Virus record (IMG/VR): IMGVR_UViG_3300031705_000005
Span: 1-53,572 of that record
Source of the DNA: a virus
Reading direction: 5' to 3' (one strand)
DNA: 53,572 nt
The notes under the pieces are model-generated. The model was not told the origin of the DNA and did no database searches. It saw only the letters and a program-made list of their open reading frames with translations. Positions 5,647-20,872 of the stretch are shown here, one piece after another. Within the stretch, counting starts at the first letter, position 1, and each line of letters starts with the position of its first letter. Both the position numbers and the translations under genes were made by a program.

Positions 5647-6078
5647 ATGGCAACATTAGAAGTAAACAATAAGCAATTGAGATTAATTCAATCAGCATTA
5701 GATTTATATTCAAGGATAGGTATCGGACAATTTGAGGTGATTAAAGAACACCCAACATTTGAAAGACATTTAGCAAACCAACTTATAGATAAGGATGGAA
5801 AAACTGATTATGGACAATACCATACAGTTAGAGATTCAGTAGATTTGATGTTAGTTCAACCTAGGAATATGTTAATACAAGAACCTAACCACCCACAGAA
5901 TGGGAGTTGGGGTATTCATAATCCAAAGGTAGACGAAACCTGTAGAGATGCATATGATTTGATTCAAGTAATCAGACATGAATTTTGGAAAGCTCAGAGT
6001 GAACCAACTAATCACACAGTCGATTCATCGGTTCATTTAACAAATGAGGATTCAAATAATATAAAAGTAACGCTATGA
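5647..6078 (+). CDS. Hypothetical protein (143 aa)
   Basis: N-terminal helical half (NKQLRLIQSALDLYSRIGIGQ) and a middle with a conserved-looking NHPQNGSWGIHNPKV segment, a type of small protein seen beside metabolic genes in tailed phages. No enzymatic motif. Overlaps the next gene by 4 nt (ATGA). Confidence 0.65.
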   Translation: MATLEVNNKQLRLIQSALDLYSRIGIGQFEVIKEHPTFERHLANQLIDKDGKTDYGQYHTVRDSVDLMLVQPRNMLIQEPNHPQNGSWGIHNPKVDETCRDAYDLIQVIRHEFWKAQSEPTNHTVDSSVHLTNEDSNNIKVTL

Positions 6079-9564: not shown

Positions 9565-9660
9565 TAAAGGGGTGAGTGAAACTGATTAAATTGACAACAT
9601 CTGTGGTAAAGGTTAACCCGTCATTCATGCAGTAACCTCGAAAGACCCGAAGCCCCTTTA
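9565..9660 (+). ncRNA. Two-copy structured RNA element, copy 2
   Basis: Terminal stem TAAAGGGG (9565) with CCCCTTTA (9653-9660), followed by TTTTTT. The core shares CTGATTAAATTGA, GGTAAAGGTTAACC, TCATTCATGCAGTAACC and CGAAAGACCCGAA with copy 1 at 4329-4419. Different closing stems that both pair show selection on structure. The 3' T-run could end transcription. Confidence 0.72.
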
Positions 9661-9847: not shown

Positions 9848-10114
9848 ATGACGTGGGATACTATAAACATAACCGATAAAATACACTACCTAAAGAAATT
9901 AATGGGTAATGCAGTTAAAGGAAACTTTGATGATGGGGATAACCAAATAGTTGATGCACTGATTACCGGTTCTTTAAATGAGTTCTTTGATGATGAATTC
10001 GGATTTGATGTAAAACCTCATCATTTAAAATTTATGAGGGAGTTATGGGATGTTGCGATTGATAATCAATTAGATGAATCAGTTATAACATCGATTAAGC
10101 GGGGGAAGTCTTAG
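9848..10114 (+). CDS. Hypothetical protein (88 aa), leaderless
   Basis: ATG 9848 abuts promoter P6. Acidic helical protein (FFDDEFGFDVKPHHL in the middle). The last 16 nt, including the stop, are also the 5' acceptor and D-arm region of the tRNA-Gly-like gene at 10099, so translation and tRNA processing of one transcript compete. Function unknown. Confidence 0.65.
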   Translation: MTWDTINITDKIHYLKKLMGNAVKGNFDDGDNQIVDALITGSLNEFFDDEFGFDVKPHHLKFMRELWDVAIDNQLDESVITSIKRGKS

Positions 10115-10173
10115 GGTAAGATATCTATCATTCCAGATAGAAGGTGTTGGTTCAAATCCAACCCTCCGCTCCA
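10099..10173 (+). tRNA. tRNA-Gly(UCC)-like with 8-nt anticodon loop
   Basis: Acceptor GCGGGGG/CCTCCGC, D-arm GTCT-TAGGGTA-AGAT with the GG pair, T-arm GTTGG-TTCAAAT-CCAAC, discriminator T and an encoded CCA (10171-10173). The anticodon stem TCTAT/ATAGA encloses CATTCCAG, 8 nt rather than 7. The loop contains TCC, so glycine (GGA) is the likely identity. The extra base resembles +1 frameshift-suppressor tRNAs; alternatively the stem extends by one pair to leave a hexaloop. It overlaps the end of the upstream gene by 16 nt. Confidence 0.75.
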
Positions 10174-10220
10174 AAGAGTTTTATGTAGTATATGGCTCTC
10201 TAAAATGAAAACTACTAAAG

Positions 10221-10295
10221 AGAATGATTGAAGCTAATCATAATAAAACCGATGATGTGAACACCTACGGGTAATACAACGCCGGATATTATTCT
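10221..10295 (+). ncRNA. Interleaved hairpin element X1
   Basis: Closing stem AGAATGAT (10221) with ATTATTCT (10288-10295). An inner hairpin ATCAT-AATAAAACCG-ATGAT is present and the 3' side has GCCGGAT. Element X2 (10380-10491) repeats the plan with different but pairing stems and the same ATAAAACCG loop. It lies directly 5' of tRNA-like Y1. Function unknown. Confidence 0.6.
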
Positions 10296-10302
10296 CAATA
10301 CT

Positions 10303-10374
10303 GCGGGAGAAGGGTTAAGAGAAACTCGTTGTACTTCCAGTACAAAGAAGTTGGGGCAGTTCCAACCTCCCGCT
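10303..10374 (+). ncRNA. tRNA-Gly(UCC)-like RNA Y1, non-canonical T- and D-loops
   Basis: Perfect cloverleaf geometry of 72 nt: acceptor GCGGGAG/CTCCCGC, D-arm GGGTT-AAGAGA-AACTC, anticodon arm TTGTA-CTTCCAG-TACAA (UCC), 4-nt variable region, T-arm GTTGG-GGCAGTT-CCAAC, discriminator T. The T-loop lacks TTC and the D-loop lacks adjacent GG, so the standard elbow contacts are missing. All stems covary with Y2 while the three loops are identical. Confidence 0.7.
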
Positions 10375-10379
10375 CTAAA

Positions 10380-10491
10380 AGAACAATTGAAGATTGAGAT
10401 AAAACCGCTCAAGCAATTCGGAAGGTTAAAGCATATAAGACGATTTATCGCATCTGCTAGTTTCCCCGATGGTGTTACCGGCTATTGTTCT
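10380..10491 (+). ncRNA. Interleaved hairpin element X2
   Basis: Closing stem AGAACAAT (10380) with ATTGTTCT (10484-10491), inner hairpin TTGAG-ATAAAACCG-CTCAA, 3' side ACCGGCT. Homologous to X1 with compensatory stem changes and a roughly 37-nt longer interior that holds extra small hairpins (CGAT/ATCG, GGT/ACC). It lies directly 5' of Y2. Confidence 0.6.
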
Positions 10492-10499
10492 TTTCTTAT

Positions 10500-10571
10500 G
10501 CGAGAGAAGGGTTAAGAGAAACCCGCTATACTTCCAGTATAGAGAAGGTGGGGCAGTTCCACCCTCTCGCT
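10500..10571 (+). ncRNA. tRNA-Gly(UCC)-like RNA Y2, non-canonical T- and D-loops
   Basis: Same layout as Y1: GCGAGAG/CTCTCGC acceptor, D-arm GGGTT-AAGAGA-AACCC, anticodon arm CTATA-CTTCCAG-TATAG, variable AGAA, T-arm GGTGG-GGCAGTT-CCACC, discriminator T. Compared with Y1, changes fall in stems and are mostly compensatory, whereas AAGAGA, CTTCCAG and GGCAGTT are unchanged. No encoded CCA. Confidence 0.7.
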
Positions 10572-19963: not shown

Positions 19964-20872
19964 ATGCAGAATTTAGGATACGCATGTATCAACGAAACAT
20001 TGGGTTCACAGAAACCCAAAATTACTACCAATCGTAGTATGATTAAGAGAACGTTCAAAGAGCGTGGTGTAGAATACGCATCAGAGCTGGCCATTCAGAA
20101 TTGTAGAGATTTGATTGAGATTATCAAATGGAATCATCAAAATGGTATTAACTTCTTTAGAATGACTTCAGGTTTATTTCCGTGGTATTCTGAATATAAG
20201 TTATCAGATATGCCACATGCCAATCGTATCAAAATCCTATTAGAAGGTGCTGGTGCTCTTGCTACTAAGTACGGTCAACGTATTACAACTCATCCTGGCC
20301 CATTCAACGTATTACCATCACCAACTGATAGTGTAGTACAAAATACTATCAATGAACTAACAGACCATGCTGAAGTGTTCGACCTTATGGGGTTATCACA
20401 AACTCCATACAATAAGATTAATATCCATTGTAATGGTGTTTATGGTAATAAGATTACTGCTATGGATAGATTCTGTAAGAACTTTGATAGACTCCCTCTA
20501 TCTGCACAAAACAGATTGACAGTAGAGAATGATGATAAGGCTAGTATGTATTCTGTAACAGATTTAATGTACATTCACGAACGTATCGGTATTCCAATTG
20601 TTTTTGATTATCATCATCATAAATTCTGTACAGGCGGTTTAACTGAAGAAGAAGCTCTTAAACTTGCAGCTAGTACTTGGGGTGATATTAAGCCTGTAGT
20701 TCATTATTCAGAATCTAAATCATTACACGAAGAGAATGATAAGATTAAACCACAAGCACATTCAGATTACATTTCAGAATATATAAATACTTATGGATTA
20801 GATGTAGATATTATGATAGAAGCTAAAAAGAAAGAATTAACCCTATCTCAGTACAAAAACGTGCACGCATAG
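19964..20872 (+). CDS. uvdE: UV damage endonuclease (UVDE)
   Basis: 302 residues matching the UvdE family, a TIM-barrel metal-dependent endonuclease that nicks DNA 5' of UV photoproducts. Visible hallmarks: LGYACINETL start, FFRMTSGLFPW, THPGPFNVLPSP, INIHCNGVYG, LTVENDD, and FDYHHHKFC with metal-ligand histidines, then VVHYSESK. Length is about that of bacterial homologues. It has its own promoter (P12). A repair role on the phage genome is the straightforward reading. The gene ends in the first copy of a ~50-bp direct repeat. Confidence 0.93.
   Translation: MQNLGYACINETLGSQKPKITTNRSMIKRTFKERGVEYASELAIQNCRDLIEIIKWNHQNGINFFRMTSGLFPWYSEYKLSDMPHANRIKILLEGAGALATKYGQRITTHPGPFNVLPSPTDSVVQNTINELTDHAEVFDLMGLSQTPYNKINIHCNGVYGNKITAMDRFCKNFDRLPLSAQNRLTVENDDKASMYSVTDLMYIHERIGIPIVFDYHHHKFCTGGLTEEEALKLAASTWGDIKPVVHYSESKSLHEENDKIKPQAHSDYISEYINTYGLDVDIMIEAKKKELTLSQYKNVHA

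Follow-up and report, generated by a model that had tools for sequence, protein, structure and literature searches.

The stretch of DNA analysed here (the window, 53,572 nucleotides, nt) is a complete IMG/VR virus contig, record IMGVR_UViG_3300031705_000005, and probably represents a fragment of a larger phage genome. It carries on the plus strand two tRNA-Gly-like RNAs, Y1 (10303-10374) and Y2 (10500-10571), which an earlier note had singled out and which we located and folded as described there: both are exact 72-nt cloverleaves with an acceptor stem of 7 base pairs (bp) and D, anticodon and T arms of 5 bp each, and both have the D-loop AAGAGA, the anticodon loop CTTCCAG and the T-loop GGCAGTT. 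The base U73 is followed by CTA in Y1 and by CAA in Y2, CCA being encoded in neither. The compensatory differences between the arms of the two copies, also reported in the note, fall at model columns 4-68, 27-43, 29-41 and 49-63, with a G-U/G-C exchange at 11-24. Neither RNA is reported by ARAGORN, and the Rfam tRNA model (RF00005) misses both even at E up to 5; both programs report the same four other tRNA genes in the window, one of which, at 10099, is typed "???" by ARAGORN.

Y1 and Y2 belong to a new, large and previously unnamed phage RNA family (R1), against whose covariance model they score 94.2 bits (E 2.4e-22) and 95.2 bits (E 1.3e-22), respectively; homologues in other contigs score 60-96 bits, with E down to ~1e-24. 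A search with the pattern of the three loops retrieved true homologues, mostly paired, in eight further IMG/VR contigs. The family was widened through a conserved small protein encoded upstream and through broader patterns, these first sets comprising 62 distinct 72-nt cloverleaves, and a last scan, which left acceptor and anticodon unconstrained, raised the number of distinct cloverleaves to 75, of which 72 are glycine-type (C35-C36); the 75 come from dozens of IMG/VR phage contigs. The model finds matches in all 50 contigs that supplied members. The R1 RNA consists of an acceptor stem (1-7/66-72), a D arm (10-14/21-25), an anticodon arm (27-31/39-43), a variable loop of four bases, a T arm (49-53/61-65) and base 73. 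Pairing is preserved in the homologues, the opposite of what the earlier note had named as a refutation: among 47 diverse members, 99.0% of the pair cells are paired, versus 42-52% in slid controls, and two-sided changes affect 15 of the 22 pairs (234 cells), versus 3-9 pairs (6-30 cells) in the controls. Two groups of contigs dominate, one AT-rich, with TTTG-type promoter motifs like those of Bacteroidetes and with several members larger than 120 kb, the other GC-rich, with phage tail genes including one for a tape-measure-like protein. A blastn comparison with isolate phages gave no RNA similar to Y1/Y2, and a scan of 289 host genomes from one phylum gave two weaker matches. Many R1 relatives lie in tRNA clusters beside canonical tRNAs.

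The absence of TTCRA from the T-loop and of GG from the D-loop, observed in the earlier note, is confirmed; its conclusion that both halves of the tRNA elbow were lost together is not, the elbow being re-keyed rather than lost. Throughout R1 the T-loop reads GGCRGNN and the D-loop carries A18-G19, so that A18-G19 with G54-G55-C56-R57-G58 stands in place of G18-G19 with TTCRA. Among the tRNAs of the scanned loci, all 140 with a TTC T-loop carry GG in the D-loop, whereas eight of the nine with TGC lack it, most of them reading AG. Since TTC goes with GG, TGC mostly with AG, and GGCRG with AG, the change is a coupled replacement. With reference to the contacts of the canonical elbow (PMC4810234), G19-C56 is still possible, G18-Psi55 is replaced by A18-G55 and T54-A58 by G54-G58, with a pairing geometry that we infer.

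Related elbows were also observed on decoding tRNAs. Two loci, L217 (contig G349, 161 kb; 377-452 and 5947-6030) and L245 (G295:C35; 308-2046), hold sets of tRNAs in which the elbow is swapped to A18/G55, with T-loop TGCRANN, mostly an AG D-loop, and Ile, Leu, Pro, Met, His, Gln and Arg identities. The full GGCRG/AG elbow accompanies ordinary anticodon loops in Lys(UUU) (L233, 691-762; L217, 4529-4600), Thr(UGU) (L211, 2326-2397) and Gly(UCC) (L219, 802-873) tRNA-like genes.

What the family retains is glycine identity. In the unconstrained set of 75, G1-C72 is present in 74 members, C2-G71 in 73, U73 in 73 and C35-C36 in 72; positions fixed by the search patterns give no independent evidence of conservation, but C35-C36, the acceptor and U73, taken from the last scan, do. 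All of these are determinants of glycine acceptance: mutants of C35 lose charging by bacterial glycyl-tRNA synthetase (GlyRS) 105-1500-fold, those of C36 21-41-fold and those of the first base pair 11-43-fold, and GlyRS contacts U73 directly (PMC9908026). Of the 83 tallied copies, 14, mostly GC-rich ones, have a CCA encoded behind U73. Decoding features have fared differently. Normal decoding requires U33, and about half of the family is therefore without a decoding loop: position 33 is A in 35 members, U in 34, G in 4 and C in 2, position 34 is U in 44, C in 20 and A in 11, never G, and 32-38 is C-G in 61 of the 75. Thus, U33 and a defined base 34 are found in Y1 and Y2 and are not maintained across R1. 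The R1 RNAs are very probably chargeable glycine tRNAs excluded from translation, and the non-translational role that the earlier note had considered for these covarying RNAs is probable.

The strongest clue to the function of R1 is its link with Mom. In GC-rich contigs, the open reading frame (ORF) that reads in frame into the R1 RNA belongs to the Mom family, PF25680 (E 4e-28 and 4e-26), with profile scores of 98.8 and 92.5 bits, above the gathering cut-off of 27.1. PF25680 was searched in 71 contigs and found in 31; it is present in 30 of the 61 R1-bearing contigs, including all eight over 120 kb, and in 18 of the 19 GC-rich ones. It was found in none of 49 other IMG/VR viral contigs and in none of six large contigs without glycine RNA, among them G051 (169 kb), a relative of the window that lacks R1. 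Fisher tests of R1/Mom co-occurrence gave 3.7e-10 and 3.3e-4, values uncorrected for kinship. Three arrangements occur: in GC-rich contigs the RNA coincides in frame with the 3' end of mom, at L129 and L169 it directly follows the mom stop codon, and in G353 it overlaps the gene's 5' end. The large phages (>120 kb) carry two or three mom copies far from the R1 RNA, which there must therefore act in trans. Eight large-phage contigs (G009, G011, G015, G017, G019, G022, G044 and G046) have two adjacent, diverged mom genes, with a third elsewhere in three of the contigs; such neighbouring pairs suggest a heteromeric Mom or two specificities.

The linked protein shares with phage Mu Mom (PF25680, PDB 8bv8) the family, the GNAT fold and the S124 position (Ser or Thr). 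Indeed, its AlphaFold model (mean predicted local distance difference test score, pLDDT, 79.4) has Mu Mom 8bv8 as best match (E 9.1e-14), followed by GNAT acetyltransferases, and the PRNSES motif holding the site of the inactive Mu mutant S124A recurs as PRN[ST]E[ST] in 10 of 10 aligned linked Moms. YPKxxDLxWxID closes the conserved core of the protein, and the R1 RNA of GC-rich contigs starts at this point. The idea that the GC-rich R1 copies are just a conserved protein C-terminus was rejected, because the L129/L169 Moms carry a different tail and still have a separate R1 RNA directly past the stop, because YPK is also the end of Mu Mom, and because the AT-rich copies are mostly intergenic.

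A chargeable glycine tRNA that has shed decoding features is thus repeatedly found next to the gene of Mom, the only enzyme known to place a glycinamide on DNA, and for this reason we consider it probable that the R1 RNAs are dedicated glycyl-tRNAs set aside from decoding, whose glycine goes into DNA modification of the Mom type. The Mu Mom product is given as alpha-N-(purin-6-yl)glycinamide (N6-carbamoylmethyl-adenine) where PMC3874153 and PMC4461284 cite Swinton 1983. Since G1-C72, C2-G71, U73, C35 and C36 are retained, host GlyRS would charge Y1 and Y2 with glycine; contact of the charged RNA with EF-Tu and the ribosome might be prevented by the re-keyed elbow (A18/G55, G54/G58), by a C32-G38 pair that closes the anticodon loop and by the family-wide freedom of bases 33 and 34. 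The glycine would pass to Mom, a GNAT-fold enzyme that these phages also encode; with the glycyl-tRNA as substrate, Mom would form N6-carbamoylmethyl-deoxyadenosine in the phage DNA and thereby protect it from restriction. Transfer of glycine from Gly-tRNA(Gly) by GNAT-fold enzymes, as proposed here for Mom, is known for DhpK and Orf11, which differ in using small-molecule acceptors and in being FemX-like double-GNAT proteins, not Mom (PMC12945691).

On balance, we also lean towards an aminoacyl-tRNA-dependent DNA hypermodification in which Mom moves the glycyl group onto a DNA adenine and the adduct rearranges to glycinamide-adenine, which would identify the Mom donor. Attachment of the glycyl to N6 would yield N6-glycyl-adenine, which is isomeric with the product; C6 might then be attacked by the amine of the glycine via a five-membered ring (a Smiles-type rearrangement), the old N6 becoming the carboxamide. 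N6-glycyl- and N6-carbamoylmethyl-adenine both add C2H3NO, and the rearrangement would spare the need for a second nitrogen donor. In Mu and the other Mom phages lacking R1, host tRNA-Gly could serve Mom. A literature search, with preprints and many journals outside its reach, found no paper tying Mom to tRNA.

Several observations weigh against glycine donation by R1. Y1 and Y2 themselves retain U33 and the UCC anticodon. The window has no mom, and the same is true of most AT-rich contigs below 112 kb (exceptions are G027, G047, G050 and G353), although these small contigs are fragments and the absence of mom from them therefore says little. The window is syntenic with the Mom-bearing G011 and G022 (47-70% identity), yet its closest sampled relative is G051, which has neither R1 RNA nor mom; the presence of mom in the unsampled part of the window's phage is therefore a prediction. 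In one of the GC-rich contigs, the 11-kb G023, the R1 RNA lies beside another gene, and R1 RNA is absent from 12 isolate Mom phages (Mu, A511 and P12002L among them), so that Mom does not always depend on it. The contigs are related, and the co-occurrence counts are not independent; moreover, where the RNA overlaps mom in frame in GC-rich contigs, part of the RNA conservation could be protein-level. Mu Mom is also reported to bind acetyl-CoA and iron (Karambelkar 2020). Finally, a 2021 review assumes an acyl-CoA donor such as glycyl-CoA (PMC7824862). Separately, a weak R1 match near the mom gene of phage Melnitz (27.7 bits) was rejected, since a CCA anticodon and G73 suggest that it is a tRNA-Trp.

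Different explanations might account for part of these data. According to one of them, R1 would be a tRNA mimic regulating mom or Mom, for example by recruiting GlyRS or binding Mom, and not a glycine donor. The RNA does abut mom in three layouts, and Mu mom is tightly regulated owing to its toxic expression (PMC4461284). However, the R1 RNAs of the large phages lie in tRNA clusters tens of kb from mom, often paired, and therefore act in trans, and regulation alone leaves unexplained both the retained GlyRS identity and the CCA encoded in some copies; on these grounds we consider a regulatory role unlikely.

It is slightly more doubtful that R1 is a decoy or nuclease-resistant tRNA countering a host defence directed at tRNA-Gly or at canonical elbows, with Mom linked to it through a shared counter-defence role. 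Re-keying is not restricted to glycine, as a related elbow occurs on decoding tRNAs of other identities (L217, L233, L211 and L245); nevertheless, the PF25680 search found no mom in the two Lys-type contigs with the GGCRG/AG elbow, and adjacency to mom recurs across different phages. As for the decoy for anticodon nucleases suggested in the earlier note, we found nothing to support it, and the free drift of positions 33 and 34, beside GlyRS determinants that stay fixed, leads us to rate it low.

A further hypothesis is that the glycyl-RNA serves a different acceptor, for instance a peptide, a lipid or the cell wall, of phage or host origin, the link with Mom being indirect. A precedent exists in the non-proteinogenic tRNA-Gly of Staphylococcus, which supplies peptidoglycan (pentaglycine), is thought to escape EF-Tu and feeds a GNAT-fold FemABX transferase (PMC4052509, PMC12945691). 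The analogy, already drawn in the earlier note, is apt in that R1 likewise retains glycine identity with an altered D-loop G18-G19. It does not extend to the partner: the FemX-like domain PF13480 was found in none of 27 R1-bearing contigs (PF02388 itself was not searched for), and the gene recurring beside R1 is that of the DNA-modifying Mom, whose product contains a glycine unit. R1 also differs in being phage-encoded, in combining A18-G19 with G54-G55-C56-R-G58, the staphylococcal 18-19 being UU or CU (PMC4052509), and in not keeping bases 33 and 34 across the family; in place of the EF-Tu-weakening A49-U65 and A51-U63, its 49-65 pair is G-C in all members and its 51-63 pair is U-A or C-G (model columns 48-64 and 50-62). 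Service to another acceptor thus appears very unlikely. Least probable of all is that R1 consists of ordinary or reduced tRNAs for glycine codons that have drifted: Y1 and Y2 keep U33 and UCC, and R1 RNAs resemble the canonical phage tRNAs (RF00005) in being 72-nt cloverleaves often placed in the same clusters, but U33 is missing from about half of the family, base 34 is variable, C32 and G38 can pair, the unusual loops are strictly conserved, and Y1 and Y2 go unrecognised by ARAGORN and Rfam.

As far as the surroundings of Y1 and Y2 are concerned, the gene typed "???" (10099-10173, plus strand) is tRNA-Gly(UCC)-like and scores 46.7 bits with the Rfam tRNA model and 54.6 bits with R1. Its elbow is canonical, with GGG in the D-loop and TTCAAAT as T-loop, its anticodon loop (CATTCCAG) has 8 nt, and CCA is encoded; it is a probable less-derived relative of Y1/Y2, and possibly a frameshifting reader or an additional non-decoding member. 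In its homologue at L002 the elbow is half re-keyed (TGCGATT with AG). Upstream of the RNA array lies the conserved small ORF of 88 amino acids (9848-10114, plus strand); in the window its 3' end extends into the gene at 10099, and most relatives show the corresponding overlap with the first R1 RNA. In L003, L004, L005, L006 and the window (9848-10114), the first RNA has this ORF's stop codon (KLREKS*) within its D arm, and coding and RNA sequence therefore overlap. This ORF is a positional neighbour only, a place occupied by mom in the GC-rich phages.

The spacer between Y1 and Y2 (10375-10499, plus strand) holds a conserved hairpin-like element (AAGATTGAGATAARRCCGCTCA...ACCGG), with a similar motif in L002, L037, L058 and L035; such an element also sits between the paired RNAs of other contigs. 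Conserved hairpin-like spacers of this kind separate the RNAs at 10215-10302 and 10375-10499 of the window and in L002, L037 and L058, some of them flanked by GAGAATGAT/ATCATTCTC. Long, structured-looking intergenic stretches (CGAAAGACCCGAA and relatives) recur in the tRNA clusters, at ~9570-9660 of the window and in L012 (270-560), L003 (5453-5755) and L005 (3416-3720); the one in the window matched no Rfam family. Further downstream, 19964-20872 encodes a homologue of UvdE-type UV endonucleases (PF03851, E 1.5e-61).

With the R1 RNA in hand, one can test directly where Mom obtains the glycine-like group of its modification, a structure in print since 1983. The re-keyed elbow, in turn, is a natural experiment on which elbow contacts exchange together while the fold survives, and the R1 covariance model offers a simple finder for more such phages and a predictor of glycinamide-modified DNA. 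If the proposed role of R1 is true, a charged tRNA would be the donor for a DNA chemistry, and the tRNA-like genes of phages need not serve translation.
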